Origin: Aromatoleum evansii
Lineage (GTDB): Bacteria > Pseudomonadota > Gammaproteobacteria > Burkholderiales > Rhodocyclaceae
Length of the DNA stretch: 40,928 nucleotides
Reading direction: 5' to 3'
NCBI RefSeq assembly: GCF_012910805.1
Contig: NZ_WTVK01000049.1
Span: 1 to 40,928 of the forward strand
The notes under the pieces: generated by a model
The model's input: the letters and a program-made list of their open reading frames with translations, nothing else
The model's database searches: none
What the model was told of the DNA's origin: nothing
Made by a program: the position numbers and the translations under genes
Shown here: positions 14,727 to 31,182 of the stretch, piece after piece
Layout of the letters: the number at the start of each line of letters is the position of its first letter
How positions within the stretch are numbered: the first letter of the stretch is position 1

Positions 14727-15773
14727 TCAGACGGCCGTCAGCAGCTGCCCTTCGGTATCGCCAAGCTCCTGCCGGCTCCGCACCTCGGGGTAGTAGCACA
14801 TGTAGCCGCTCGCGCAATGGCTCGGCGCGTCGCGCAAGCCGACCGCGAACTTGCGCACCGCGTCGGCCGGCTCGCCCGCCTCGATGCGCTCCAGTACGCG
14901 AGCGACCAGTTCGACGCTCTTGATCTTGCGTTCGCTCGCGCCCTCGCGGCCGGCGATCTTCACCGAATGCACGCCCGCCGCATGCATCGCGGGCATCGCG
15001 CAGACGCCGCAGGGGCCCCAAGGGTAGCCGTTCGGTGCGGATGTGAAGCCGTTGCCGAAGCGGTACCAAAGCCAGCGTTTGTAATCGAGATCGTTCTGTT
15101 CCAACCGGCGCAGCGCGCGCTCCTGCGGTTGGCCGCCGCCGGTCGCCTGATACTCGAACTGGTAGTTGTCGATGCAGATCGGGCCGCCCTTGTTCATCGG
15201 CAGATGGACGGTGTGGCAGGCGCCCTCCTCGAACACGCAGCCGTCGTTGAGGACGAAGGCTTCGATGTCGAGTTCGGGCAGCTCCGTCGTGATCGCGGCG
15301 ATTTCGGCGACCGTCACGTCCCTCGGCAGGATGATGCGATTCGCGCCGAGCGCGGCGAAGAAGCGCGCGGATTCGACGTTGCGGCAGGTCGCCACCGAGC
15401 TCACATGGATGTCGAGGTCGGGCACGTTCGCCGCGAGCGAGGCGATCAGCGAGATGTCGGCGACGATCGCGGCCTTGCCGCCGATGCTCTTGAAGCGGGC
15501 GCCGATCTCGGTCAGTGCGTCGAGGTGCTGTTCGCCGTACTGCTGCGCGTTGAGGACGAGGAAGACTTCGGCGTCGAGCTCTGTGGCCTTGTCGACGACG
15601 CGCTCCAGGTCCGCATAGCCGTTGAGATTGCCGAACACGCGACGATTGACGCCGGAGGTGTTGAAGCGCTGGATCCAGTCGGGGGGGACGACGCCACAGT
15701 AGAGCTCGCGGGCGCCGGCGCGCACCAGCGGTTCGACTTCGGCGGGGGTGCTGATGGGGGCGGTAATTCGCAT
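14727..15773 (-). CDS. U32-family protein, UbiU-like; candidate O2-independent hydroxylase subunit for CTQ formation
   Basis: A 348-residue protein of the peptidase U32 family. The U32 signature is clear: EAF...GC179-x4-G-x-C186, followed by C200 and C255 (C-x6-C-x13-C-x54-C), a four-cysteine set like the [4Fe-4S] ligands of UbiU. VKIAGREGAS near residue 271 is another family segment. U32 members UbiU/UbiV hydroxylate ubiquinone precursors without O2, and TrhP/RlhA hydroxylate RNA, so hydroxylation is more likely than proteolysis. It starts one base after the UbiV-like gene and ends the qhp tract. Acting on the QhpC tryptophan is my inference. Confidence 0.75.
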   Translation of the reverse strand: MRITAPISTPAEVEPLVRAGARELYCGVVPPDWIQRFNTSGVNRRVFGNLNGYADLERVVDKATELDAEVFLVLNAQQYGEQHLDALTEIGARFKSIGGKAAIVADISLIASLAANVPDLDIHVSSVATCRNVESARFFAALGANRIILPRDVTVAEIAAITTELPELDIEAFVLNDGCVFEEGACHTVHLPMNKGGPICIDNYQFEYQATGGGQPQERALRRLEQNDLDYKRWLWYRFGNGFTSAPNGYPWGPCGVCAMPAMHAAGVHSVKIAGREGASERKIKSVELVARVLERIEAGEPADAVRKFAVGLRDAPSHCASGYMCYYPEVRSRQELGDTEGQLLTAV

Positions 15774-15774
15774 G

Positions 15775-16677
15775 TCAGGCTCCCGAGAGGACGATGCGGC
15801 TGACCCAGCCGTTGTTGACCGCCTCGGCGACCGCGGCGGCCATGCCTTTGGCGTGGCGGTAATACATGGTGTTGCCGCGCTGCGAGGTAGGGAGTTCGTG
15901 CGTGCCGGGGCGCGCGCCGACTTCGTTGAAGCCGAGGCATTCGCGGTGGCACTTGTGGCCGGGCGAGAACTTCTCCGGCATGTCGAGCGACAGCGAGCCG
16001 AGCTTGCAGATGCGGCCCTTGGCGATGTAGCCGTAGGGCGCGCGCACGCCGACGGGAAAATCGATGCCGGCATACATGTCGGCGGCGCCGAAGGGCGGAA
16101 AGTCGAGTTCCAGGCGACCGATGCCCAATCCGTCGAGGATGTCGCGGAAGGGGCCGGCGCGCAGGCCGTTGGGGTACATGCGCGCCCAGGTCGCGGACGG
16201 CAGGCGCGGGTCCTTCAGCATCTTGCCGAGAAGCCGCCCGGCGACCGGCCTCAGCTCGGGGAACTCGCGCTGCACGAGGCGCGCGACGCCCCAGTCGTTG
16301 ACGGTGACTTCGGAGCCTGCGGGCAAACGCCGGAGGGCGGCGCGCAGCGGATCGAAGAGACCGTCGCAGGCGATCGGCGTGACGAGGCCGAAGGTGAGGC
16401 CCCAGCGCTCGCACAACGCGACGGCGCGGTCGATGGATTCGACGTTCGGCAACAGGTGTTCGCAGAACTCGCTGCCGAGGAAGAAGTGCGTCGGCTCGGC
16501 GTCGTCGGGCAGCACGACGCAATCGCTGGCCTCGCCCAGCTGGGCGAGGTAGTCGTCGCGGGTGAGCCGTTCGTGACGCGCAAATCCGGCCAGTTCGCGT
16601 TCGTCGACGAGGGCGAAGCCCAGTTCGATCGGTCGGGTGGCGCTGTCGGGGGTGGGGATGTGCTGCGTGCTTGTCAT
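15775..16677 (-). CDS. U32-family protein, UbiV-like; probable partner of the UbiU-like protein
   Basis: A 300-residue protein. Four cysteines fit the UbiV layout: C72 in the N-terminal part, then C224-x18-C243-x3-C247 (GRICKLG and HKCHREC). UbiV of E. coli has one early cysteine and a C-x12-C-x3-C group that bind [4Fe-4S]. The segments TVNDWGVARLV and GRLLGKMLKDPR are typical of UbiV-type U32 proteins. The start overlaps the qhpE stop (ATGA), so it is translationally coupled to the QHNDH protease gene. UbiV works as a heterodimer with UbiU, and the two genes here are adjacent. The substrate is inferred. Confidence 0.72.
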   Translation of the reverse strand: MTSTQHIPTPDSATRPIELGFALVDERELAGFARHERLTRDDYLAQLGEASDCVVLPDDAEPTHFFLGSEFCEHLLPNVESIDRAVALCERWGLTFGLVTPIACDGLFDPLRAALRRLPAGSEVTVNDWGVARLVQREFPELRPVAGRLLGKMLKDPRLPSATWARMYPNGLRAGPFRDILDGLGIGRLELDFPPFGAADMYAGIDFPVGVRAPYGYIAKGRICKLGSLSLDMPEKFSPGHKCHRECLGFNEVGARPGTHELPTSQRGNTMYYRHAKGMAAAVAEAVNNGWVSRIVLSGA

Positions 16678-17366
16678 GAATCGATCTCCGCGATTCTCTT
16701 GTGTTCCCGCCCATGCCAGGCGGCGCGGGCGGCGAGGTGTTCCACGAGCCCGGGGAGGCTCATGGAGGGAAAGTCGGCGAGGACGCCGGCGACGATGCCG
16801 CTGAAACGGGCCGTCGCCATGCTCGCGCCGCCGGGCGTCCGCCCCGTGCCGGCCGGGGAGCAGCCCCAGTCAGCCCCGCCGGAAGTCTCGCCCTGGAGCG
16901 ACGACCACTGCCCCGCCGCGCAGCGCGCATCGCCGCTGATGGCGAGCACGCCGGGATAGGCTGCGGGAAAGACCGGCGTTCCGCGCGCGGGGGCCGCAGC
17001 GACGAGTACGATGCCGCGGGCGAGGGCCTGCGCGCAGGCGTCGCGCAGCACGCCGCGGTCTTCGAGCAGGCCGAGGCTCAGGTTGATGATGCGGGCCCCC
17101 TCCTCCACGCACCACGCGATCGCGGCCGCGACCATGGCGGGCGTCGGCGCATGGCGGTGCGAGGCGATGCGTGCGTCGATGAGGCGGGTTGCCGGCGCGG
17201 CGTCGAGCACCAGGGCGGCGACGGTTTCGCCGTGTGGCAGCGGGCGCCCGACCGCAGGGGCGCGCTGCACGCAGCCGTCGGGAGCGGGCACGAAGCTCGC
17301 CGCGCCGTGCAGTGCGTGCAGCACGCCGGTGAAGCCGCCATCGATGATTCCGACGGTGATGGTCAT
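16674..17366 (-). CDS. qhpE: QhpE, subtilisin-like protease that removes the QhpC leader
   Basis: A 230-residue compact subtilase without a signal peptide. The triad is visible as D9 in GIIDGG, H45 in LPHGETVA and S182 in GGASMATARFSG. In the QHNDH system QhpE cleaves the 28-residue leader from the cross-linked gamma subunit in the cytoplasm. The short length and absence of a prodomain fit that role. ATGA overlaps join it to qhpF upstream and to the UbiV-like gene downstream, so all four make one translational unit. Confidence 0.88.
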   Translation of the reverse strand: MTITVGIIDGGFTGVLHALHGAASFVPAPDGCVQRAPAVGRPLPHGETVAALVLDAAPATRLIDARIASHRHAPTPAMVAAAIAWCVEEGARIINLSLGLLEDRGVLRDACAQALARGIVLVAAAPARGTPVFPAAYPGVLAISGDARCAAGQWSSLQGETSGGADWGCSPAGTGRTPGGASMATARFSGIVAGVLADFPSMSLPGLVEHLAARAAWHGREHKRIAEIDS

Positions 17367-19081
17367 ACGGCCCTCAGGAGTGGCGCGGCGGTGCGGACAG
17401 GATCGGGTTCGACGAGGCGTCCGTCGCGCAGCTCGACAATGCGGTCGACGGCGCCGACGGACGCGAGGTTGTGCGTGATGAGGATGCGCGTGCGGCCGGC
17501 GAAGACGCGGTCGACGGCGCCGATGATGGCCTGCGCGACGGGAAGATCCAGCCCGGAGGTGGTCTCGTCGAGGATCAGTACCGCCGGATCCTGCAGGATC
17601 GCGCGCGCCAGCGCGAGGCGCAGGCGCTCGCCTCGCGACAGGGTCGCGGCCATCGCGCCGACCGGCCTGTCCAGCCCGCCCGCATGCGCGAGCTTGCCGA
17701 GGCCGGCGAGGTCCAGCGCGCGCATCAATCCCGTTTCGTCGGCATCGGGCGCGACGAAGCGCAGGTTGTCGCGGATGCTGCCGGGCATGAGCACTGGCTC
17801 CTGGTCGACGACGACGAGCTGGCGACGCAGTTCGGCGAGATCCACCAGGTCGAGGCGCACGCCGTCGAGCAGCAGGCGCCCGGCCTGCGGGTCGTAGTGA
17901 CGCTGCAGGAGGTCGATGAGCGTGGATTTTCCGGCGCCCGATGCGCCGACGAGTGCGAGCTTGGTGCCGGACGGGATGTCGAGCGTCGCGCCTTCCAGCA
18001 CCGCCTCCGTACCGTAGCCGAAGCGCACCGCATCGAGGCGCAGTTCGCCACGAACAGGATGCGCGAGCGGCACGGGCTGGGCGGGCGATTGCACGGTCGG
18101 CCGCTCGGCCGCGAGCTCGCGGATGCGCTCGAGGCTCACCTTCGCGCGCTGCCAGCCCATGAACACGCCGGCGAGGGTCTGCAGCGGCCCCGCGGCGCGC
18201 GTCGTATAGGCGATGAAGGCGACGACGACGCCGACCGACAAGTCACCTGCCGCCGCGAGTGCCCCCCCGACCGCGAACACCAGCAGCACGCCGAGGCCGG
18301 ACAGCACGCGCTGCAGCCCGCCTGCGCCGAGGGATGCGAGCTGCGAGCGGCGCAGCGCGGCGAAGTAGTCGCCGTGGTGGGCGCGCAAGCCGGCTTCCTG
18401 GCGCCGGGCAGCATTGGACGCCTGGATGAATTTCATCGCGCGCAGCGATTCGACGAAGAAGCTCGACATCGCGGCGCTTTCCTTGCGCATTGCATGCGTG
18501 CTCCGTTCGAGCCAGGGACGCGAGAGGATCAGCGCGGCGACCTGCAGCGGGACCAGCGCGAAGACGAGCGCGGTGAGCAGCGGGCTCAGCGACAGCATCA
18601 ACACCAGCGCGACCGCCAGCGAGAAGACGCCGTTGAGCACCGCCATCGGCGCGTCGAGCGCGAAGCGCTGCACTTCGGCGACGTCGCCGTCGAGCCGCGA
18701 CAGGATCTCGCCACCGCGGGTGCGCGCGTAATACGTCGGCGCGAGCGTCTGCAGGTGGCGCCACACCTGTTCGCGCAGGCCGAAGAGGAGGTGCGCGGAG
18801 AGCTTCAGGTAGCTCAGGCGCGACAGCGTCTCGATGAGCACGCCGCCGACCATCAGCACGAGGAAGACAGCGCACAGCTGCAGCACGAGCTCGACCTTCC
18901 CGCCGACGATGCCATCGTCGACGAGGCGCTGTGTGAGGTAGGGCGGCAGCAGCGCCGCGGCCGAGCCGAGACAGGACAGGATGACGACGGCGGCGAGGGT
19001 CGCGCCGCGCTCGCGCACGAGCGGGAGCGCCCACGCGAGGGCTTGCAGCGGCAGGGAGCGGGTGCGGTCCGGCGTGATCAT
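17363..19081 (-). CDS. qhpF: QhpF, ABC exporter of the QHNDH gamma subunit
   Basis: A 572-residue half-transporter with a membrane domain of about six helices (1-320) and an ATPase domain (about 345-560). Walker A is GASGAGKST (379-387), Q-loop QEPV, signature LSRGE (481-485, not the usual LSGGQ) and Walker B VLILDE (501-506). In QHNDH gene clusters this protein is thought to carry the processed QhpC to the periplasm, since QhpC has no Sec or Tat signal. It begins the maturation block after a 285-base gap from qhpB and overlaps qhpE by four bases. Confidence 0.87.
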   Translation of the reverse strand: MITPDRTRSLPLQALAWALPLVRERGATLAAVVILSCLGSAAALLPPYLTQRLVDDGIVGGKVELVLQLCAVFLVLMVGGVLIETLSRLSYLKLSAHLLFGLREQVWRHLQTLAPTYYARTRGGEILSRLDGDVAEVQRFALDAPMAVLNGVFSLAVALVLMLSLSPLLTALVFALVPLQVAALILSRPWLERSTHAMRKESAAMSSFFVESLRAMKFIQASNAARRQEAGLRAHHGDYFAALRRSQLASLGAGGLQRVLSGLGVLLVFAVGGALAAAGDLSVGVVVAFIAYTTRAAGPLQTLAGVFMGWQRAKVSLERIRELAAERPTVQSPAQPVPLAHPVRGELRLDAVRFGYGTEAVLEGATLDIPSGTKLALVGASGAGKSTLIDLLQRHYDPQAGRLLLDGVRLDLVDLAELRRQLVVVDQEPVLMPGSIRDNLRFVAPDADETGLMRALDLAGLGKLAHAGGLDRPVGAMAATLSRGERLRLALARAILQDPAVLILDETTSGLDLPVAQAIIGAVDRVFAGRTRILITHNLASVGAVDRIVELRDGRLVEPDPVRTAAPLLRAV

Positions 19082-19366: not shown

Positions 19367-20455
19367 TCAGCGCTTCACCACCCGCATCCAGCCGATCGAC
19401 TGGTCGGCACCGCCGGGCATCTGGATCTCGCCCTTCTTCTCGAACGAATCGGCGTCGTAGATCGCGATCTTGTCCAGAGCGCCGCCGACGTAGATCTCCT
19501 TGCCGTCGCCCGAGATGTTGATCGCGTAGAAGGTCTGTTCGAGGTCCTTGCGCTTGAGGAGCTGGCCGGAGTCGACGTCGACCTTGGTGAGCTGGTTCAT
19601 CACGAGGAAGGCCTCGTTGCGCGCAGCCGGGTTGATCACCGACGAGAACATCGCCGTCGTCGCGTTCTCGAACTCCTTGACCTTCAAGGTTTCGCTGTCG
19701 AGGTCGAACACCGCGATGCCCGCCTTGAAGGCTTCGGGCGAGTCGGGCGCAGCGGCGGTGTTGGCGACGAAATACGGCGTCGACAAGGCGCGCGCCTGCT
19801 CGAAGGTGCCCCACATCGCGAGCACATCCGGTTCGCCGATGCCGGGACGGTTCCAGTGGCGGATCGGGAAGGTCTTCTCCAGCTTGCCGGTCTTCGTGTT
19901 GAAGAGGTACATGTCCCAGCCCAGCGCGATGATGTGGTCCGGGTTGCCGGTGGCGGCCATCAGGCTGATGCGGCGCGGCGCGGGGAAGGTGCGGCGCGGT
20001 TTGGCCGTCATGCCGTCGGCGGTGTCGAACACGGCGATGTAGGTATCCTCGACCTTGTACTCGGAGCGGCCGAGCTGCACCGGCGCCTGATGCACGTATA
20101 GCTCCTTGCCGTCCTCGCTCACCGCGACGGCAAAGAACCCCTTCACGCGGCGCTGCGGCGTCGAGAAATCGGCGCGGAACACAGTCTTGCCGCTGTCGAG
20201 GTCGACGCCGACGACGCTTTCCATGCGGTTCGTCAGCACATAGGCGGTCTTGCCGTCCTTGGGCACGGTTATCGCGCCGGGGATGCCGTCGCCGGGCAGA
20301 TTGATCGAGCGGACGATCGCCCGCTTGGCCGGATCGACGATGTGCAGGTTGTTCGGTCGCGTAACGGTCAGCAGGTACTCCGCGGCGAGCGCCGGCAGCG
20401 ACGCGGCGGCGCAGCATAGCGCAACGACCGCCTTCTTGATGGGCAGCATCCTCAT
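19367..20455 (-). CDS. qhpB: QHNDH beta subunit
   Basis: A 362-residue precursor with a Sec-type signal (about 1-24, ending LAA). The mature part is a seven-bladed beta-propeller with YVTN-like repeats (NLHIVDPAKRAIVRSINLPG, IPGAITVPKDGKTAYVLTN and so on). It forms part of the active-site cavity of periplasmic QHNDH together with QhpC. It starts 3 bases after qhpC, so expression is tightly coupled. The order qhpA-D-C-B matches known clusters. Confidence 0.9.
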   Translation of the reverse strand: MRMLPIKKAVVALCCAAASLPALAAEYLLTVTRPNNLHIVDPAKRAIVRSINLPGDGIPGAITVPKDGKTAYVLTNRMESVVGVDLDSGKTVFRADFSTPQRRVKGFFAVAVSEDGKELYVHQAPVQLGRSEYKVEDTYIAVFDTADGMTAKPRRTFPAPRRISLMAATGNPDHIIALGWDMYLFNTKTGKLEKTFPIRHWNRPGIGEPDVLAMWGTFEQARALSTPYFVANTAAAPDSPEAFKAGIAVFDLDSETLKVKEFENATTAMFSSVINPAARNEAFLVMNQLTKVDVDSGQLLKRKDLEQTFYAINISGDGKEIYVGGALDKIAIYDADSFEKKGEIQMPGGADQSIGWMRVVKR

Positions 20456-20458
20456 CGC

Positions 20459-20779
20459 TCAGTCTCCCGGGAACAAGGTCTGCAGTTCGCGCCAGTCGCG
20501 CAGCGCCGAGTTCTTGCCGTCGGTCCAGTCGCGCGCGGTGTTGAGGCTGTCGGCGAGCTGCGCGGGCCACCAGCAGGGGTCGGTGCAGCCGTAGAGGTCG
20601 GCCTCCATCGGCTGGCACAGGCTCGCCAGCCCGCCGAAGGCATCGACTTCCCAGCCGGGGTCGAAGGTCGTCGTGCAGCCGACGACGCTGCTCATCAGCT
20701 GCACTTCCTCGCGGTGGCCGTCGCTGGCGGCCTGTTCGATCAGGTGCGCCTTGTGGTTCAGGGCTCGCAGTCGTTTCAT
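20459..20779 (-). CDS. qhpC: QHNDH gamma subunit precursor carrying the CTQ cofactor site
   Basis: A 106-residue precursor. Residues 1-28 are the leader (polar, no export signal) and 29-106 the mature subunit. With an offset of 28 every modified residue of the known gamma subunit is present. Thioether pairs are C35-E44, C55-D61 and C69-D77; the CTQ pair is C65-W71, in [14 protein letters not shown]. QhpD makes the Cys-Asp/Glu cross-links, QhpE removes the leader and W71 must be doubly hydroxylated. ATGA overlaps with qhpD upstream and a 3-base gap to qhpB. Confidence 0.95.
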
Positions 20780-22203
20780 TGCAGGGCACTCCTTTGTTCG
20801 ATGGCAGCGTTGAAGAACGCCGGATTGGCGAGCGCGATCTCGCCGAAAGCCTCCAGCCCGAAGGCCGTCCATTCGCGAATCTGGTCGCAGTATTCGAAGG
20901 TCGGCTGGAAGGGGTCGCCGCTCTGCGAATACGATTCGTGGTAGCAGCCGCCGGCGCACAAGCTGCGCGCCGGGCAGACCTGGCAGGCGCCGTGCGGGGC
21001 CTGGGCGCGGGTCATGAAGGCGGACAGCGACTCGCGCGCGATGCCGTTATCGACGTCACCGAAGGTCTCCAGCTCGGACCCGGTGAAGCGGTGGCACAGC
21101 GAAATCTTGCCGCTGGTGCCGACCGCCAGCAGGCCGACGCCTGCGCCACAAGGCAAGACCTTCCTCGTGCCCATCCACAGGTCGGTCATCAGCTGCTGCA
21201 TGTTGCCGAACCCGTGGCGGCGGCCGCGCTTGGCCTCGCTGATGTACTCGCGGCCCAAGGCCTTGAAGGCTTCGAAGACGATGTCGAGCTCTTCGCGGCT
21301 GAGCCCGACCGGGGAGTCGGGGCCAGCGGTCGCCGGCGCGAAGCCGACTTCGAAGAAGCCCAGTTCGTCGTGCAGGTGCTTGTAGATGCCGGCGACGTCG
21401 AGGTTGCCGCTTGCGAGCGTGACGCGCGCGCCGACCGGCTTCGACTTGTACTTATCCAGCAGCCGCTTCACGCGCATCGCGACCGTCTTGTAGGTGCCGC
21501 CGCCGGCGATCGTGCGGCGATGGCGGTCGTGCTGCGCCTGGTCGCCGTCGATGCTGACCGTGATGCCGAAGCGGTGCGCGTCGAGGAAGTCGATGATCTC
21601 GTCGGTGAGCAGCGTCGCGTTGGTCGTCAGCGAGAATTCGACTTCCTTGCCGGCCGCCGCGGCCTTGTCCTCGGCGTACTCGACGAGGTCGCGGATCACG
21701 GCGATGCGGGTCAGCGGCTCGCCACCGAAGAAGACGATGCCGACGCGCTCGTGCTCGCTCGCCTCCTCCATGAGGAGGTCGATCGAGCGCGCGCCGGTCT
21801 GGAAGTCCATCACCGAGGAGTTCTTCGGCGAAGTCAGGTCCTCGCGGTAGCAGTAGCTGCAGCCGAGGTTGCAGCCGGTGGTCAGCGTCAGCACCAGCGT
21901 CTTCAGCGGCGAGCGCTCGACGACGCGCGCCGGGATCTCGTAGTGCTTGGCCTGCGGCGCGACGATGCCCAGATCGATGAAATCGCTCAGGCTGTCACAC
22001 AGCTCGGCCGGCGTGTAGCGGCCGTCGAAGCGGCTCTGGATGTCGTCCGCGCTGACCGCCGGGTTGGCCTCGAACAGGCCGAGCAGGTCGGACGCGGCCG
22101 GGTCCAGCTCGAAGATCGAGGTCGTCGGCACGTGCAGCAGCACCTGCCGGTCGCCCTTGCGTATCGCGCGGTAGTTGTGGGGTTGGATTTGGAGTGTCGC
22201 CAT
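20776..22203 (-). CDS. qhpD: QhpD, radical SAM enzyme forming thioether cross-links in QhpC
   Basis: A 475-residue radical SAM/SPASM maturase. Residues 1-90 form a peptide-recognition-type domain. The [4Fe-4S]/SAM motif is C111-NLG-C115-SY-C118. A C-terminal cysteine-rich part (CGAG..., then [17 protein letters not shown]) binds auxiliary clusters. It links Cys to Asp or Glu carbons within QhpC before export. It lies between qhpA (16-base gap) and qhpC (ATGA overlap). A GGAGAGA ribosome site precedes the ATG. Confidence 0.95.
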
Positions 22204-22219: not shown

Positions 22220-23827
22220 CTATCGCAGCGGCGGGGTATTCCAGCGCTGCACGGTCACCATCAGCTGGCCTTTCGCATCGAGCGTGCGCTCGCCGTCCTG
22301 CACGGTCGCGACGACCGACAGGTTGCCGACGTTGTTGAGGCCGCGCCGGTTCGGGTTGGGGCCCGCGAAGGACGGCAGGAACTGGCCGTGCGGCTCCATG
22401 TGGCCGGCGAACTTGAGGTCCTCGTCGTGCTTGGCACGCTCGTCGAAGGGCTCGGTGCTCCACTTCGCCGGCACGCTGCCGAGGCGCACGTCGTCATCGG
22501 TGCCCGGCTTACCGTCCGCGCCGTTGAGGAAAGCGACGGCGTCGAACTGCGCTGTCATCGGCGGATTCGTGCCGCCACCGACGCGCGCGATGCCGAAGGC
22601 CGGCTCGACGCGGACCGAGTCGATCTGGCGATACACGGCGATGGTCTTGTCCGACCCGCGCCCGCCCACCGCCAGCTTGCGCACACCCGGCGCCGCATCC
22701 GCCGCCACCTTGACGCGCACCTTCAGCTGCTCCGCGGACTTGCCGAGCCACTCCACCACCTCCACGCCCGCGCCGAGGTCGAGCTTGGCATCGAGACCCG
22801 CGCCCGCCACCGTGACGGTCGCGGTGTCACCGGCGCGCAGCATCTGCGGCGTCACCGTCGCGACCGCGTTCTTCGCGGCCTTGTCGGCGCGCACCGCCTC
22901 GAAGGTCGCCCCGATCTCGTCGGCATTGCGCAGGAACCAGCGCCCGCTCATGCGCGCGCCGTCCTCGCTCAGCGCGAAGATCGACTGCGTCTGCTCGTTA
23001 CCGAGGTGCGCCGATCCGCGCCATTCGTAGCCCGTATACACGAGCGACTCGCCCTGGCCGCGCACCGTGTTGCCCGGCCCGAAGTGCAATTCGTAGCGCA
23101 CGTCGTAGTGGTCCTTGCCCTTCGCGGTCACGGTCATCGTGCCCGAATAGGCACCCCAGCCCGGCCGCTCGCCAGCGACGACCCAGCGTCCGTCCGCCGC
23201 CTTGTGCTTGCTGCGGCTCCAGTCGCGCCAGGCGTCGGTGTTCTTCGGGTACATCGCCGCGAGCCGTCCCGGCATCTTGTCGCGCGCGATCTCCCACCAG
23301 TTGCGGTCGCGCCCGAGCGCCGAATATTCCGCACTGGGGAACTGGCCGAGGTGGGTATGCATCAGCTTGCGCCACTCGTCCTCGTCGCGCCGCTGCAGCG
23401 CGACCCGGCCGTAGCTGTGGCAGCGGCCGCACATCTGCGCCATCTCGTCGTCGGGCGGCGTGTCCTGCATGTTCGGGCGTCGCTCGGTCAGGAAGCGGAA
23501 GGGGGCCGCCTCGGACGGCGCCAATCCCTGGCGGTCGGCGAGGTACTTCACCACCGCGCGCCGCTCGTCGGCCGTCAGCTCGACCTTGTGCCAGATGCCC
23601 ATGCGCACGAGGGTCATGTCCCAGCCTTCGGGGGATTTCCGCATCTCGGGGATGCGCGTGAGCTTGCCGTCCTCCAGGTGACAGCTCGCACACTTCTTGT
23701 CGATCACCTCGCGGCCGGGATCCTGCGCCGCCGCGGCCGGCAGCGTGCCCGCCATCCCCAGCGCCAGCGCCACGGCGCCGGCAGTGCGCAGTCGTCTGCG
23801 CGTGTGTTGTGTGGTCTGCGCCTTCAC
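22220..23827 (-). CDS. qhpA: QHNDH alpha subunit (dihaem cytochrome c)
   Basis: A precursor of about 535 residues. A basic n-region and hydrophobic stretch form a Sec signal ending AAA before QDPGRE. The dihaem domain has CASCH (about 46-50) and CGRCH (about 133-137); these haems pass electrons from CTQ to an external acceptor. Further beta domains typical of the QHNDH alpha subunit follow (EPAFGIARVGGG, TVAGAGLDAKL). GTG 23827 is preferred, with GGAGACAGAA just before it; GTG 23839 adds four residues but has its ribosome site too close. Confidence 0.93.
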   Translation of the reverse strand: MKAQTTQHTRRRLRTAGAVALALGMAGTLPAAAAQDPGREVIDKKCASCHLEDGKLTRIPEMRKSPEGWDMTLVRMGIWHKVELTADERRAVVKYLADRQGLAPSEAAPFRFLTERRPNMQDTPPDDEMAQMCGRCHSYGRVALQRRDEDEWRKLMHTHLGQFPSAEYSALGRDRNWWEIARDKMPGRLAAMYPKNTDAWRDWSRSKHKAADGRWVVAGERPGWGAYSGTMTVTAKGKDHYDVRYELHFGPGNTVRGQGESLVYTGYEWRGSAHLGNEQTQSIFALSEDGARMSGRWFLRNADEIGATFEAVRADKAAKNAVATVTPQMLRAGDTATVTVAGAGLDAKLDLGAGVEVVEWLGKSAEQLKVRVKVAADAAPGVRKLAVGGRGSDKTIAVYRQIDSVRVEPAFGIARVGGGTNPPMTAQFDAVAFLNGADGKPGTDDDVRLGSVPAKWSTEPFDERAKHDEDLKFAGHMEPHGQFLPSFAGPNPNRRGLNNVGNLSVVATVQDGERTLDAKGQLMVTVQRWNTPPLR

Positions 23828-23891
23828 TTCTGTCTCCACTCTCCGGTGAGGAAAAGCGCCGCTACGGCTATCCCGAAGCGGCGCGCCGCAC

Positions 23892-25394
23892 TCACAAAGC
23901 CATGATCACGGACTTCGATTCGGTGTACAGATCGAGCACCGCCCGCCCCATCTCGCGCCCGATGCCGGACTGCTTGAAGCCGCCGAAGGGCATCGCGTTG
24001 TCGAGGATGTTGTGGCAGTTCACCCACACGGTGCCGGCCTGGATCTTGGGGATCAGGCGATGCACGCGCGTGAGGTCGTTCGACCAGATGCTCGCCGCGA
24101 GCCCGTAGGGCGTGTCGTTCGCGCGCCGGGCGACCTCGTCGAGGTCCTCGTAGGGCATCGCGACGACGACCGGCCCGAAGATCTCCTCGCGCACCACCTT
24201 CATGTCGTCGGTGGTATCGACCAGCACCGTCGGCTTGACGAAGTAGCCCGCGCCCTCGCCCGCCGCGCCGCCGGTCGCCGCGCGCGCGCCTTCGGCAAAG
24301 CCGCTCTCGATGTAGCCCAGCACGCGCTTTTGCTGCGTGGCCGACACCAGCGGACCGATCTGCGTCGTCGGGTCGATGCCGGCGCCGAGCTTCATGCCCG
24401 CAGCGATGCCCGACAGGCCTTCGACCACCTCGTCAAAGCGGCTCTTATGCACGAACAGACGCGAGCCGGCCGTGCACACCTGCCCCTGGTTGAAGAAGAT
24501 CGCCTGCGCCGCGCCGGCCGCGGCCGCGCTCACGTCCGCGTCGTCGAGCACGATCACGGGGCTCTTGCCGCCCAGTTCCAGCGACACGCGCGTCATGTTG
24601 TCGAGCGCCGCCTTGCCGACCAGCTTGCCGATCTCGGTCGAACCGGTGAAGGCGACCTTCTCGATACCTTGGTGCGACGCGAGCGCCGCGCCCGCGGTGT
24701 GGCCAAGGCCGGTCACGACGTTCAGCACGCCCGCCGGATAGCCCGCCTCCAGCGCCAGCTCCGCAAAGCGCAGCGCGGAGAGCGGCGTCTCCTCGGCGGG
24801 CTTCAGCACCATCGTGCAGCCGGTGGCGAGCGCCGGCGCCACCTTCCACGCCGCCATCAGCAGCGGGAAGTTCCACGGGATGATCGCGCCGACCACGCCC
24901 ACCGGCTCGCGGCGCGTGAAGCCGAAAAATTCGCGCTCGCGGATGATGGGCACCGACACGTCCATGGTCGAGCCTTCGATCTTGGTCGCCCAGCCCGCCA
25001 TGTAGCGCAGGAAATCGACCACCAGCGCCACATCGACGTGGCGCGCCATCGTCACCGGCTTGCCGTTGTCGAGCGACTCGATCTCGGCGAGTTCTTGCGC
25101 GTTTGCCTCGACGAGTTCGGCGAACTTCAGCAGCAGCCGCTCGCGATCGACCGGGCGCATCTTCGGCCAGTCGCCCGATTCGAAGGCCCGGCGCGCCGCC
25201 GCGACCGCACGGTCGATGTCGGCCGCGCCGCCCGCCGGCACGCTGGCGAATTTCTCGCCATTGGCCGGATCGACCACCGCCAGCGTCTCGCCGCTCGCCG
25301 CCTCCACCCACTCGGCGCCGATCAGCATGCGCCGCGGCCGCTCCAGAAAGCGCCGCGTGCCTTCGCTCAGCAGTTGTCCGTGGTAACGCTCCAT
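23892..25394 (-). CDS. NAD-dependent aldehyde dehydrogenase for the amine-derived aldehyde
   Basis: A 500-residue cytoplasmic ALDH. Key residues are N174 (PWNF), E273 (LELGGKSP) and catalytic C307 (GQVCTAGS). The sequence is of the betaine/phenylacetaldehyde dehydrogenase type. QHNDH releases an aldehyde from a primary amine, and this enzyme would oxidise it to the acid. It is immediately upstream of qhpA in the tract. The substrate (aliphatic, benzyl or phenylacetaldehyde) cannot be told from sequence. Confidence 0.9.
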   Translation of the reverse strand: MERYHGQLLSEGTRRFLERPRRMLIGAEWVEAASGETLAVVDPANGEKFASVPAGGAADIDRAVAAARRAFESGDWPKMRPVDRERLLLKFAELVEANAQELAEIESLDNGKPVTMARHVDVALVVDFLRYMAGWATKIEGSTMDVSVPIIREREFFGFTRREPVGVVGAIIPWNFPLLMAAWKVAPALATGCTMVLKPAEETPLSALRFAELALEAGYPAGVLNVVTGLGHTAGAALASHQGIEKVAFTGSTEIGKLVGKAALDNMTRVSLELGGKSPVIVLDDADVSAAAAGAAQAIFFNQGQVCTAGSRLFVHKSRFDEVVEGLSGIAAGMKLGAGIDPTTQIGPLVSATQQKRVLGYIESGFAEGARAATGGAAGEGAGYFVKPTVLVDTTDDMKVVREEIFGPVVVAMPYEDLDEVARRANDTPYGLAASIWSNDLTRVHRLIPKIQAGTVWVNCHNILDNAMPFGGFKQSGIGREMGRAVLDLYTESKSVIMAL

Positions 25395-25948: not shown

Positions 25949-26917
25949 TTATTTGGACGAGCCGAGGCGTTCCACGCCCAGCTGACCGGCCACGACCAGC
26001 GCTCCGGTGGGGCCGGCCGCGACTGCGGCGAGGTTCTGCCTGTCCGGGCGGACCTCTAGTTGCAGCGGCGCATTGCCGTCCCCGCGAAGGACCGCGCCGC
26101 CCGCCCCCACGACGATGAGCCCGCCGTTCGGCAGCGCAATGCCCGACGTCAGCGACTGCTCGGTCCCGGTTTCGAGCGCGCGCCAGCTCGTGCCCCCGTC
26201 GCGGCTGGCGATCACGCGCCCGCTCATGCCGAGCAGCACGACCTCGCCATCCGCGCGCTCCAGCCCGCTCCACAGCGAACCGGTGACGCCCGTCGCGAGC
26301 TTCGCCCAGCTCGCGCCGCGGTCCGTGGAGCGGAAGGCGAGGCCGGTTTCTGCGGCAATGAAGAGCTTCCCGTCGCGCGTGCCGAACACATGGTTCAGGT
26401 GCAGGTCCGCGTCGTGCCCGCTGCCTACGGCCATCGACTTCCACTCGCGTCCGCCATCGGTCGTCCCGAAGGCCGTCCCGTAGGCACCCACTGCGTAGCC
26501 GCGCTTCGCATCGGCGAAGTACACCGACAGCAGCACCGGCTTCTCGTCCAGCGTCGCCTGCACCTGCCAGTTCGCGCCGCCGTCCGTCGTGGCGAGAATC
26601 AGCCCGCCATGCCCGACCGCCCAGCCGCGCATCTCATCGACGAAATTCACCGCCGTCAGAAGCGCGCTCACCGGCACCTCGGCCTGCTGCCAGGTCTTGC
26701 CCTCGTCGGTCGAACGCACGATCGTGCCGTAGTCGCCCACGGCAACGAGCGCGTTGCCCGCCCGCACCAATCCGGTCACAGGCACCTTCGCGGCCAGACG
26801 CGCCTTCATCGCCGGTGCGGGCACTTTGGCCGCGTCGGCCGGGGCGGCCGCGAACACTGCGGCACTTGCCGCCAGGCACAGGCCGACCAGGGTCCGCCTG
26901 ATCTGCATCGATTTCAT
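25949..26917 (-). CDS. YCF48/BNR-repeat periplasmic protein
   Basis: A 322-residue precursor with a signal peptide (residues 1-29, ending ADA). It is made of BNR/YCF48-like propeller repeats, seen as recurring T-D-G-G-x-x-W and S-x-D-x-G-x-T-W motifs (RSTDEGKTWQ, ATTDGGANWQ, GTTDGGREWK, RSTDRGASWA, ASRDGGTSWR). YCF48-like proteins often accompany RND-type permeases with DUF1302 and DUF1329 proteins, as here. It is probably a periplasmic assembly or adaptor part of that transport system. Confidence 0.82.
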   Translation of the reverse strand: MKSMQIRRTLVGLCLAASAAVFAAAPADAAKVPAPAMKARLAAKVPVTGLVRAGNALVAVGDYGTIVRSTDEGKTWQQAEVPVSALLTAVNFVDEMRGWAVGHGGLILATTDGGANWQVQATLDEKPVLLSVYFADAKRGYAVGAYGTAFGTTDGGREWKSMAVGSGHDADLHLNHVFGTRDGKLFIAAETGLAFRSTDRGASWAKLATGVTGSLWSGLERADGEVVLLGMSGRVIASRDGGTSWRALETGTEQSLTSGIALPNGGLIVVGAGGAVLRGDGNAPLQLEVRPDRQNLAAVAAGPTGALVVAGQLGVERLGSSK

Positions 26918-26929
26918 CGCGGACTCTCC

Positions 26930-29293
26930 TCAGTGGGCCATCAGCGGCGCGCGGACCGGACCGCGGCGCGGGATCAGCACGTCGATCGTCACCGCCAGCG
27001 CGGGCAGCAGCGTGATCGCCATGATCATGTTCACCATGAACATGAAGGTCAGCAGCATCCCCATGTCGGCCTGGAACTTCAGCGCCGAGAACGACCAGGT
27101 CGCCACGCCGATCGACAGCGTCACCGCGGTGAACACCGTCGCCACACCGATCTCGCGCAGCGCCTGCTTGAACGCGGTGACGATGTCCTCGCCGTGCGCC
27201 AGATGCATCTGCAACCGGTTGTAGATATAGAACGCGTAATCGACGCCGATCCCCACCGCCAGCACCATCACCGGCAGCGTCGCCACCGTCAGGCCGATGT
27301 CCAGTTCCTTCATGAACCAGTAGCCGAGAAAGGTCGCCAGCGTAAGCGGCAGGCAGCACGCGATCATCGCGCGCCAGTCGCGATACACCGCGAACACCAG
27401 CACCAGGATCGTCGCATACACATACAGCATCATCGGCAGCTCGGAATGCTCGACCACCTCGTTGGTCGCCGCCTGCACGCCTGCATTGCCGCTGGCGAGC
27501 CGCACGGTCACGCCCGGGAAGGGCTGCATCTCGCGGAAGTGCTTCACCGCGGCAACCACCTCCTTGATCGTCGAGGCCTTGTGGTCTGCGAGATACAGGT
27601 TCACCGGCAGCAGCGTGCAGTCCGCGTTGAACAGCCGCATGCCTTCCGGCACCTGGCGCACCGCCTCGCCCAGGGTCAGTTCCTCCTGCGGCAGCGCGGC
27701 CCACTTCGGATTGCCTTCATTCACGCCCGATGCGGCGAGCTTCGTGAGGCTGGGCAGCGACTGCGCCGAGAGCACGCCCGGCACGTTCGCGAGGTACCAG
27801 GTCAGCCGGTCGACATGGCTCATGACGTCGTGGCGATAGCAGCCGTCGGCCGGCGACTCGACCACCACGGTCAGCAGATCCAGCCCCAGCGCGTAGCGCG
27901 CGACCACGGCTTCGACGTCCTGGTTGTAGCGCGAGTCGTCGTGCAGCTCCGGCGCGCCGGGCAGCACGTGGCCGACATGCCGCCCCTGGCTCTGCCACAC
28001 CGCCACCACCAGCAGCGCGAGGCACACCAGTGTGCCGATCGCCGCATTCCTCGGATTCGCGATATGCACGCCCAGCGACGCCATCGTGCGATTGCGCAGC
28101 CCCTCCATCTTCGTCGCTCGCAGCACGAAGCGCTCGTCGAAGCGGAAGTAACTCGCCAGCACCGGCAGCATGATGAGGTTCGTCACGATCTTGTACGCGA
28201 CACCCACCGACGCCGTGATCGCCAGCTCGCGGATCATCGGGATCGGCACCAGCACCAGCGTCGCGAAACCGACGAAGGCCGTGATCAGCGCCAGCGTCCC
28301 CGGCACCAGCAGGCCGGTGAAGCTGCGGCTCGCCGCCGTATAGCCGTCCGCACCGTTGATGACTTCCTTGGCGATGTAATTGACCTGCTGGATGCCATGC
28401 GACACGCCGATCGCGAACACCAGGAAGGGCACCAGGATCGCCAGCGGGTCGAGGCCGAAGCCCAGCAGCGTGATCGTGCCGAACTGCCACACCACCGACA
28501 CCAGCGAGCACGCCAGCGGCAGGAAGGTCAGCAGCCACGAGCGCGTATACCAATAGACGGCCGCGGCGGTCAGCAGGAAGGCCAGCGCGAAGAACTCGAT
28601 CACGCTCGTCGCCCCCTCCGAGATGTCGCCCATCTGCTTCGCGAAGCCGATGATGCGGATCTTCACGTCGGCATCGCTGAAGGTGTTGCGCACCTCGGAT
28701 TCCAGCCTCTGGCTGAACTCCGCGTAATCGAGCCGCTCGCCGGTCTGCGGATCGGGGTCCGCCAGCTCCGCGACCACCATCGCAGACGACGAGTCGTTCG
28801 CGACCAGCGAGCCGATGAAGCCGCCGACGATCGTGCGCTCGCGGATCGCGGTGATGTTGTCCGGCGTGAGCGCCTTCACGGTGACGTCGCCGCCGATCAC
28901 GTCCTCGGCCTTCATGCCCTCCTCGGTGATCTGCACCGCACGGGTGTTCGGCGTCCACAAGGACGTGACCGTGCGCCGGTCCACGCCCTTCATGAAGAAG
29001 AGCGCCTGCGTCACGTCATAAAGTTTGGTCAGCGCCTTCTCGTTCCAGATGTCGCCCTTGGCGGCCTCGACGGTCACGATGATGCGGTTCGCGCCGAACA
29101 GCACCTCGCGATACTGGTTGAAGGTCTGGATGTATTCGTGGTCTTGCGGCAACTGCTTGTCGAAGCCGGCGCTCATGTGCAGTCGCGACGCGAACAGCGC
29201 CATGACCACCGTGAAGCCGAGCAGCGCCAGCAGGATCAGCAGGCGGTGCCTGAAGCACACGCGCTGCATCGCCAGCACGAGTTTCTCGATCAT
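26930..29293 (-). CDS. RND/MMPL-family transporter
   Basis: A 787-residue inner-membrane protein with a duplicated layout: one helix, a large periplasmic domain and five more helices, twice over. Conserved MMPL-type segments include LAILVPFLVFAIGVSHGIQQVNY in the first half and VMVLAVGIGVDYAFYIYNRL in the second. It belongs to the predicted-exporter RND group (COG1033) rather than to drug pumps. ATG 29293 is used; the frame is open upstream but proline-rich. It is followed after 12 bases by the YCF48 gene. Substrate unknown. Confidence 0.88.
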   Translation of the reverse strand: MIEKLVLAMQRVCFRHRLLILLALLGFTVVMALFASRLHMSAGFDKQLPQDHEYIQTFNQYREVLFGANRIIVTVEAAKGDIWNEKALTKLYDVTQALFFMKGVDRRTVTSLWTPNTRAVQITEEGMKAEDVIGGDVTVKALTPDNITAIRERTIVGGFIGSLVANDSSSAMVVAELADPDPQTGERLDYAEFSQRLESEVRNTFSDADVKIRIIGFAKQMGDISEGATSVIEFFALAFLLTAAAVYWYTRSWLLTFLPLACSLVSVVWQFGTITLLGFGLDPLAILVPFLVFAIGVSHGIQQVNYIAKEVINGADGYTAASRSFTGLLVPGTLALITAFVGFATLVLVPIPMIRELAITASVGVAYKIVTNLIMLPVLASYFRFDERFVLRATKMEGLRNRTMASLGVHIANPRNAAIGTLVCLALLVVAVWQSQGRHVGHVLPGAPELHDDSRYNQDVEAVVARYALGLDLLTVVVESPADGCYRHDVMSHVDRLTWYLANVPGVLSAQSLPSLTKLAASGVNEGNPKWAALPQEELTLGEAVRQVPEGMRLFNADCTLLPVNLYLADHKASTIKEVVAAVKHFREMQPFPGVTVRLASGNAGVQAATNEVVEHSELPMMLYVYATILVLVFAVYRDWRAMIACCLPLTLATFLGYWFMKELDIGLTVATLPVMVLAVGIGVDYAFYIYNRLQMHLAHGEDIVTAFKQALREIGVATVFTAVTLSIGVATWSFSALKFQADMGMLLTFMFMVNMIMAITLLPALAVTIDVLIPRRGPVRAPLMAH

Positions 29294-29352
29294 GTCGGGG
29301 TATCCATTGGGCCGGCGCGGGGGAGACTGCCCCCCCGGCGCCGGCAAGTGCA

Positions 29353-31155
29353 TCAGAACGAGTACGAAACGCTCGCCGACAGGAAGTCGCGGTCACGCAT
29401 CAGGTTGTTGGCGCCACCGCCATAGAAGGTCACCCACTGGATCGCGCCCTTCCACGCGTCGCGGTAGTTCGCGAACAAGGACAGCGTCAGCGCCTTGCGG
29501 CCTTCCACGAAAGGCAGCCCGTTGGGCGTCGTGCCGTCCACGTCGTGGTACCAGTCGATCTGAGGCGTCAGCGTCACGCCCGTACCGGCCACGTTCGGGT
29601 AGTTCAGCGCGGCCTCGACCACGTAGCCCCACGAGGTCTTGTCCGGCAGCGCATAGTTCGGCAGGAAATACGGCGTCACGCCGCTGGTATCCAGCCCCGG
29701 GTAATGCGCCACCGCCGCTTCCGCGAGGATGAAGCCGTCCGTCGCCCCCAGCGCCTTCGCGACGCCGCCCAGCGGATCGTTGTGCGAGAAGGTGTAGAAG
29801 CCCGTCAGGTGGAACTGGTACTTCTCCTCCTCGACGAAGCCCGGGTGGCTGCCGTGCTCGTAGATGCTGTACTTGCTCGACGGCCCGCCAAAGATGTTGC
29901 CGAAGGGCACGGTGGGGTCGATGCCGACGCTGTCGTTCGGCCGGTAAGACAGCTCCGCACCGACCGCCACGTTCGCGATCTTCGTGTTCGCCGAGATCGC
30001 GTACAGGTCCTTGTCCTCGCCGTAGGCGATGAAGTAGCCGGTCACCGCGCCCGCCGTGTTGCCGGTAAAGCCGAGGAAGGGCAGCTTGTCGTGATAGCGC
30101 TGGTAGGTGAAGGCGAACTCGGTGTCGATCTCCTCCGCGTTGTAGCGGAAGTTCACCCCGTACTGGCCGGAGTTCTTCGGCGCATCCGTGCGCAGGTAAG
30201 GCACCGCGATGCCGGCGGCGATCGCGTCCGCATCCGAGATGCCCGGATTGTCGCCGCAACGCCCGTTCGGCAATCCCGCACAGGCTCCCGGCCCGACGAA
30301 GTCCTCGATGATGCTGGTCGGCACGTAGGCCACCCGCCGCCCCTTGCCCAGCACGTCGGCCGCCGAGAAGAAGGTACCCACGGGGTCGAACTTGAAGCCG
30401 TTCCAGCCGAACTGGTAGTAGGCCTCCGCGCCGAGGTTCTCCGTCAGTCCCAGCGACGCCGACAGCATCGGCGCCGGGATGAAGATCTCCTTCAGCTGCG
30501 TGCCCGGCACGTGGAACTTCTGCAGGTCGATCGCGTTGATCTGGTTCACGCCGCCGATGATGAAGATGTCCTCGCCCCAGGAGATCACCTGGTTGCCGAG
30601 CTTCACCTTGCCGCGCCGCTCGCCGACGTTGAACTCCTTGGCGATCCAAAGATCCAGCAGCGTCGTCTCGCCCGAGGCCTCGCTGGCGACGTCGGTGCGG
30701 CGCGTATCGTCGGACTTCGTATCGACGAACCAGTTGAAGCGCGCCAGCGCGCTCCAGCCACCCGGATACTTCAGCGACAGATCATGCGTGCCCTTCAGCA
30801 CCGCCGAGACGATGTCGCCCTTCTTGTAGTTCAGGTTGCCGTCGTCGAAGTTCGTGTAGTTGAAGTCCGCGTTCGCGTAGCCCAGGCCGTTGCCCAGGTT
30901 GTACACCTGCGACAGCTCATTGTTCGTGCCGTTGTTGCAGCCGCCGCTGTCGTTGCTCACGGTCTTGCAGCCGGCCGACTGCAAGCGCGTCATCACGCCG
31001 TACGAAACCGTGCTGTCGAAGCTGCCCGACAGCCCCTCTTCCGAGCCGAAACGGAACGCATGGCTCGCCGGCGACCAGCATGCCGCCGCAACCGCAACTG
31101 CCAGGATCGAAGGCGCGAGCGTGCCCCGACGATCCGAAATCGTCCTTTTGTTCAT
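29353..31155 (-). CDS. DUF1302 outer-membrane protein
   Basis: A 600-residue precursor with a long signal peptide (about 1-33, ending SHA). The mature protein is rich in alternating aromatic beta-strands and ends in YSF, the terminal Phe expected for BAM-inserted barrels. It matches the DUF1302 family, which is usually encoded next to DUF1329 and an RND permease. Probably a channel for a hydrophobic compound. It lies 27 bases after the DUF1329 gene. Confidence 0.85.
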   Translation of the reverse strand: MNKRTISDRRGTLAPSILAVAVAAACWSPASHAFRFGSEEGLSGSFDSTVSYGVMTRLQSAGCKTVSNDSGGCNNGTNNELSQVYNLGNGLGYANADFNYTNFDDGNLNYKKGDIVSAVLKGTHDLSLKYPGGWSALARFNWFVDTKSDDTRRTDVASEASGETTLLDLWIAKEFNVGERRGKVKLGNQVISWGEDIFIIGGVNQINAIDLQKFHVPGTQLKEIFIPAPMLSASLGLTENLGAEAYYQFGWNGFKFDPVGTFFSAADVLGKGRRVAYVPTSIIEDFVGPGACAGLPNGRCGDNPGISDADAIAAGIAVPYLRTDAPKNSGQYGVNFRYNAEEIDTEFAFTYQRYHDKLPFLGFTGNTAGAVTGYFIAYGEDKDLYAISANTKIANVAVGAELSYRPNDSVGIDPTVPFGNIFGGPSSKYSIYEHGSHPGFVEEEKYQFHLTGFYTFSHNDPLGGVAKALGATDGFILAEAAVAHYPGLDTSGVTPYFLPNYALPDKTSWGYVVEAALNYPNVAGTGVTLTPQIDWYHDVDGTTPNGLPFVEGRKALTLSLFANYRDAWKGAIQWVTFYGGGANNLMRDRDFLSASVSYSF

Positions 31156-31182
31156 GGAGATTCTCCCTGGGTGGAGTGCGGA

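Follow-up and report, generated by a model that had tools for sequence, protein, structure and literature searches.

The last two genes of a quinohemoprotein amine dehydrogenase (QHNDH) operon in Aromatoleum evansii probably encode an O2-independent peptidyl-tryptophan hydroxylase of the subunit QhpC, which stands in for, or complements, the flavin monooxygenase QhpG. The operon is located in a stretch of 40,928 nucleotides (contig NZ_WTVK01000049.1 of assembly GCF_012910805.1), hereafter called the window, and the products of the two genes, here named U and V, resemble the UbiU and UbiV proteins of the U32 family. QhpC is the subunit that bears the cofactor cysteine tryptophylquinone (CTQ), and in most of the pair-bearing genomes sampled the U-V pair was the only candidate hydroxylase route found.

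According to the accessible part of PMC7876137, QhpG adds two oxygens to the tryptophan of crosslinked QhpC, both of them from O2 rather than from water, works in complex with QhpD and is called essential. The UbiU-UbiV proteins act in O2-independent ring hydroxylation and bind iron-sulfur (Fe-S) clusters, as described in the passages available from PMC6747719. The economical reading is that U-V would perform the QhpG step without O2.

The U-V pair closes a qhp operon that lacks qhpG

The window contains a complete qhpA-D-C-B-F-E operon on the minus strand, which is closed by V and then U (Table 1). The assignment is based on the joint presence of QhpA, QhpB, QhpD and QhpE, all above their NCBIfam cut-offs, and of QhpC, above the Pfam cut-off. 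The original prediction placed the pair last in the qhp tract, and the sequence bears this out: an ATGA overlap joins qhpE to V, and a single base separates V from U (TGA C ATG).

It had also been noted that the window has no qhpG gene, and this absence extends to the whole genome. No QhpG (NF049967, cut-off 240 bits) was found in the 5.94-Mb host genome, which has one qhpC gene; the best of all 91 candidates scored reached 31.9 bits, and a QhpG hidden elsewhere in the genome was rejected on these grounds. The same model finds the QhpG proteins of three plasmid-borne qhp loci, from Pseudomonas, Cupriavidus and Paracoccus, at 403-558 bits, and the one from Pseudomonas matches a flavin-dependent peptidyl tryptophan dihydroxylase of solved structure (7ctq). 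Neither V nor U was found in these three loci.

Co-occurrence of the pair with qhpC and QhpG

Three sets of genomes were compared: 80 species with qhpC, taken as the top 80 among 504 relatives and so leaning towards the window qhpC; 297 genomes of the host family; and 369 genomes of the class, the host being included in the latter two. At least nine V genomes, recognized by their identical coordinates, are common to the 80-species and family samples. QhpG was scored in these two samples on the best 27-40 candidates per genome, and V on the best six (class), the best eight (family) or up to 30 (80 species), so that weak QhpG or V proteins could be missed.

Among the 80 species, QhpG was above the cut-off in 57 (27/50 plus 30/30) and V was present in 28, with V only in 19, QhpG only in 48, both in nine and neither in four. 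In the host family, qhpC was identified in 44 of the 297 genomes and V in 29, all of which have qhpC, and no V was recovered among the best eight candidates in any of the 253 genomes without qhpC (Fisher's exact test for V with qhpC, p = 1.6e-29, kinship not counted). The 44 qhpC genomes comprise 22 with V only, 15 with QhpG only, seven with both and none with neither, giving QhpG in 22/44. In the class sample, two genomes have qhpC and the same two have V, one of them being the host. A genome from another family (G332) likewise has qhpC and V, with no QhpG among the candidates scored.

Stated per category, V is present in 22/22 (family) and 19/23 (80 species) of the qhp genomes without QhpG, as opposed to only 7/22 and 9/57 of those with QhpG. 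At E<=1e-10, QhpG-like matches are missing from six of the 19 V-only genomes and reach only 42-163 bits in the other 13. Three genomes combine two qhpC genes with two V genes (G548, G551, G662), and two combine two qhpC genes with QhpG and no V (G483, G617). The avoidance between QhpG and V gave p = 2.8e-8 in the 80-species sample and p = 1.5e-6 in the family by Fisher's exact test, in which kinship is not counted.

Since many of the 80 species belong to Pseudomonas or Aromatoleum, a tree-aware test was also applied. At least 10 changes for QhpG and seven for V are needed on a QhpD tree of 81 rows, and in the seven to eight independent pairs V changed opposite to QhpG in three to four and in the same direction in none or one, with no difference in the rest. 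The avoidance is therefore strong but not strict: it is clear in the counts, consistent in direction and based on few independent switches.

The order of the genes is conserved as well. The genes qhpC, qhpE, V and U follow each other on one strand in 21 loci, namely the window and 20 of the 80 loci fetched, where some V and QhpE positions are partial domains and gene ends come from the pair extraction. With V and U after qhpC and qhpE in so many loci, which include both alpha- and betaproteobacteria, chance is excluded. In the other eight V genomes of the 80-species sample, the order qhpE-V-U is found on a short contig in three (L192, L193, L194), the pair lies at a contig end in two (L195, L197), and qhpE was not seen near the pair in the regions fetched for three (L190, L191, L196). 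U is located beside V in each V region fetched, one of which is cut by a contig end.

The substrate is unchanged where QhpG is absent

Nine residues of QhpC, C7, E16, C27, D33, C37, C41, W42, W43 and D49, are invariant in 84/84 sequences from both kinds of genome, including the window. The numbering is that of mature Pseudomonas putida QhpC; Trp71 and Cys65 of the window precursor correspond to Trp43 and Cys37, an offset of 28. We take these residues to include those that form the three thioether bridges and CTQ. Trp43 and Asp33 are named in the accessible part of PMC7876137. With these key residues unchanged, the same tryptophan must still be hydroxylated where QhpG is absent. Even a divergent qhp cluster (L184 390-6872, genome G690), in which QhpC matches at 61 bits, keeps the key motifs in the alignment; V and U follow directly after qhpB, and the genome has no QhpG match at E<=1e-20.

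U and V are distinct from the ubiquinone proteins

A pair of this kind could simply be the ubiquinone UbiU-UbiV of its genome. True UbiU and UbiV proteins, at 563.7 bits (cut-off 440) and 385.6 bits (cut-off 275), respectively, are encoded on another contig of the host genome with an SCP2 gene adjacent, which rules out that U-V is the ubiquinone pair of the host. The host genome thus has neither a QhpG nor the lack of other UbiU-UbiV genes that would have spoken against the original prediction, whose reading is supported by the genome comparisons. A separate UbiU above the cut-off was found in 29 of 30 pair-bearing genomes that we chose from the V genomes, the exception being a draft genome (G388), and the pair is therefore not the UbiU of those genomes.

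The original prediction also asked whether U and V group separately from UbiU and UbiV, and phylogenetic analyses show that they do. The 38 qhp-linked U sequences in a tree of 76 rows form one group (Shimodaira-Hasegawa-like approximate likelihood ratio test, SH-aLRT, 100), apart from 31 UbiU sequences (SH-aLRT 95); one row of uncertain start (own_C221b) was left out, and the host UbiU is present twice. In a joint tree of 41 rows, hand-picked from 146 extracted, U, V, UbiU and UbiV form four separate groups. Branches in these trees are long and the deeper branching order is unsure.

U matches the Pfam U32 family (PF01136) at 144.1 bits against a cut-off of 22.4, and the UbiU equivalog NF047963 at 76.3 bits, far below its cut-off of 440. 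At E<=0.001, V matches neither a Pfam nor an NCBIfam model, be it PF01136 or the UbiV equivalog NF047965 (cut-off 275 bits). Of the two U32 genes that had been proposed, U can thus be assigned firmly, whereas membership of V is a remote inference by way of the U profile. In profile comparisons, U scored 99.9% with UbiU, 99.7% with TrhP/RlhA and 94% with UbiV, whereas V scored 91-93% with U, 12% with UbiV (over-long UbiV rows L215 and L224 left out), 9% with TrhP/RlhA and 7% with UbiU; the QhpG control scored 0.2%.

In the host genome, four U32-family genes also stand together, an NMT1/THI5-like gene lying among them (L146 5102-10080; contig C221, about 8.1-13.1 kb), and next to them are an aminotransferase-like gene and a major facilitator superfamily gene. 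Clustered U32 matches were observed in four other genomes as well (G369, G372, G373, G661). This cluster is possibly another O2-independent hydroxylation pathway.

Conserved cysteines and predicted folds

The cysteine sets reported in the original prediction, C179, C186, C200 and C255 in U and C72 and C224-x18-C243-x3-C247 in V, are present in the two proteins. Alignments were made of the U/V pairs extracted from the 21 loci, and in larger sets of rows cysteines 72, 224, 243 and 247 of V are invariant in 39/39. In U, cysteines 130, 179, 186, 200, 255, 258, 320 and 326 are invariant in 38/38 rows, and cysteine 26 is kept in 37/38. The cluster ligands given in the available passages of PMC6747719 are C39, C180, C193 and C197 in UbiV and C169, C176, C193 and C232 in UbiU. 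In the alignment, C179 and C186 of U fall on the first two ligands of UbiU, whereas the fourth UbiU position is not aligned in U. Candidate cluster ligands in U are C179, C186, C200 and, as the fourth, several cysteines, all of them invariant in 38/38 rows.

U and V resemble UbiU and UbiV in being an adjacent gene pair, in the C-x6-C pair that U shares with UbiU (C169/C176) and in the C-xn-C-xn-C-x3-C order that V shares with UbiV. They differ in their match scores, in their separate clades, in the additional invariant cysteines of U and in their tie to qhp. U also belongs to the same superfamily as TrhP and RlhA, which have been linked, in the parts of the literature accessible to us, to prephenate-linked hydroxylation of RNA, but these proteins have RNA substrates and form groups separate from U in the tree.

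The predicted models have a predicted local distance difference test (pLDDT) score of 79.6 for V and 79.7 for U. A fold search with the model of U gave the U32 peptidase Mk0906 (5d88) as the best match. A sequence search of solved structures returned no match for V at E<=1 and four for U, none of them relevant. Neither NCBIfam (June 2026) nor Pfam has a model naming U or V as a QHNDH factor.

Genomes with both QhpG and the pair

The arrangement of qhpG varies among the genomes in which it accompanies the pair. In G381 the gene is found beyond the pair, at a distance of about 6 kb. No qhp gene is present in the regions fetched around qhpG in G370 and G374 (A. toluolicum and A. tolulyticum; 19.0 and 11.8 kb), and in G370 qhpG follows efflux-pump genes. 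In G548, the first operon has the pair with no QhpG beside it, and the second has qhpG and a pair on the opposite strand. It looks as if O2-dependent and O2-independent routes are kept side by side in such genomes. E. coli keeps both UbiIHF and UbiUV, according to the accessible part of PMC10470549. Elsewhere, qhpG was found upstream of qhpA (L046, L056, L058).

Some further observations concern these loci. In the two Aromatoleum genomes with the U32 pair and no qhp gene near qhpG, the qhpG gene is located at L132 8518-10179 and L133 9639-11039, in the former with efflux genes on one side and a long RTX-repeat gene on the other. The second qhp operon of G548 (L183 3536-17830) has its U32 pair beyond qhpA. 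Contig C13 of G375 has, near 634733-640964, a second, weak match of QhpC type (24 bits); a flavoprotein match resembling QhpG (103 bits) lies about 5 kb away, and the two might represent a LodB/GoxB-type system.

Gene content of the window

The closest relatives of the window are in Aromatoleum, and its qhpC gene is 98-100% identical to those of five loci (L022-L025 and L027). Positions 25949-32559 on the minus strand, upstream of the aldehyde dehydrogenase gene, contain a group of genes of YCF48-like, MMPL-family, DUF1302 and DUF1329 type.

Table 1. The qhp operon of the window with the U-V pair and the neighboring aldehyde dehydrogenase gene
Gene or product	Position	Strand	Basis and remarks
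U, UbiU-like U32 protein	14727..15773	-	348 amino acids; PF01136; proposed to be part of a tryptophan hydroxylase that modifies QhpC without O2
V, UbiV-like remote U32 relative	15775..16677	-	300 amino acids; proposed partner of U
qhpE, subtilisin-like leader protease	16674..17366	-	NF049966, 233.5 bits (cut-off 165)
ABC transporter taken as qhpF	17363..19081	-	PF00664 and PF00005; name from position
qhpB, beta subunit	19367..20455	-	TIGR03907, 501.9 bits (cut-off 223.2)
qhpC, gamma subunit, CTQ-bearing substrate	20459..20779	-	PF08992, 147 bits (above Pfam cut-off)
qhpD, radical S-adenosylmethionine thioether-forming enzyme	20776..22203	-	TIGR03906, 743 bits (cut-off 453)
qhpA, di-heme alpha subunit	22220..23839	-	TIGR03908, 728 bits (cut-off 274); start codon according to the open reading frame tool
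Aldehyde dehydrogenase, phenylacetaldehyde-dehydrogenase-like	23892..25394	-	PF00171, 599 bits; NF045735, 746.8 bits (below cut-off 850)

Discussion

We propose that U and V form an iron-sulfur heterodimer like that of UbiU and UbiV, which would hydroxylate the cofactor tryptophan of QhpD-crosslinked QhpC in the cytoplasm without O2, the step that QhpG performs with O2. Prephenate would be the probable source of the oxygen, as it is for UbiU-UbiV according to the accessible part of a review (PMC11574389). The process would then continue as known, with QhpE cutting the leader, export of the protein and oxidation of the catechol to CTQ. QhpG and U-V would thus share a substrate and a step, and they belong to the same type of operon and each occur without the other in many qhp genomes, but they have no profile similarity, use different cofactors and differ in the need for O2.

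Several observations weigh against this proposal. The pair and QhpG occur together in 9/80 and 7/44 genomes, so strict mutual exclusion is rejected. The mutual exclusion for which the original prediction suggested a test is strong in counts, whereas the sign test on independent pairs stayed above 0.05 (median p 0.25 and 0.125). Four of the 80 species have neither route by the thresholds used (G395, G399, G408, G409), although two of them, G408 and G409, have QhpG matches below the cut-off, some at contig ends. The pair lies 13-32 kb from qhpC in G332 (32 kb), G496 and G543, and on another contig than qhpC in G403. The profile similarity of V to UbiV is weak, the fold matches of V are generic triosephosphate isomerase (TIM) barrels, and the fourth cluster ligand of UbiU has no aligned counterpart in U. 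The window shows no enrichment of FNR-like boxes (seven, versus a shuffle mean of 4.59, with 18 of 100 shuffles reaching seven), and an FNR box at the operon is thus unsupported. Finally, the review cited above adds, in its accessible part, that the U32 reaction still awaits direct evidence.

Other functions for the pair were also considered. U-V might act on QhpC or QHNDH at another step, such as electron supply, care of the Fe-S clusters of QhpD or oxidation of the dihydroxytryptophan, with some other hydroxylase at work where there is no QhpG. Co-occurrence by itself ties the pair to qhp only, some QhpG genomes have the pair too, and the invariant cysteines of U outnumber the four of UbiU, as might be expected of an electron-transfer protein. 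We nevertheless regard this as unlikely: the distribution of V in genomes with and without QhpG is the pattern of a substitute, and the relatives of U, namely UbiU, TrhP and RlhA, are all linked to hydroxylation in the sources accessible to us. In the V-only genomes, moreover, QhpG-like matches are absent or low-scoring; hydroxylases of other kinds were not searched for.

It is very improbable that the pair instead hydroxylates a small molecule, be it a ubiquinone precursor or a product of amine breakdown. Such a role would suit the relationship of U to UbiU and the degradation of aromatic compounds by Aromatoleum, but 29 of the 30 pair-bearing genomes tested have a separate UbiU, V never occurs without qhpC among the 297 family genomes, and in the 21 linked loci, alpha- and betaproteobacterial ones among them, the pair comes after qhpE and not after catabolic genes. 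A role of U and V as peptidases acting on the QhpC leader seems more far-fetched still. It is suggested by the family name of PF01136 and by the overlap of V with qhpE, yet the operon already encodes a leader protease in qhpE, above its cut-off, both proteins have invariant cysteine sets, and UbiU and UbiV are described, in the sources available, as Fe-S proteins that act in hydroxylation. The peptidase reading is for these reasons not favored.

Returning to the hydroxylase that we propose, it is reasonably probable that U-V is the first U32 hydroxylase to act on a protein, an O2-independent peptidyl-tryptophan dihydroxylase that would take both oxygens from prephenate and, in anoxic cells, make a protein-derived quinone cofactor. 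A second Fe-S cluster may also be present in U, an idea based on the eight invariant cysteines of this protein as compared to four in UbiU. No paper joining U32 or UbiU proteins with QHNDH or tryptophylquinone was found in a search that left out most of the subscription literature, and the idea may already stand in Schmitt et al. 2019.

Two QHNDHs reportedly start the anaerobic degradation of aromatic amines in A. aromaticum EbN1, to judge from the title of that work by Schmitt and colleagues. Yet the known enzyme for the cofactor precursor takes both oxygens from O2, a contradiction that U-V would resolve. If the proposal is true, proteins would join small molecules and RNA as substrates of U32 hydroxylases. 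Research into organic oxygen donors, whose chemistry is unsolved, would then also gain a tractable substrate in the form of a small crosslinked protein that can be read out by mass.

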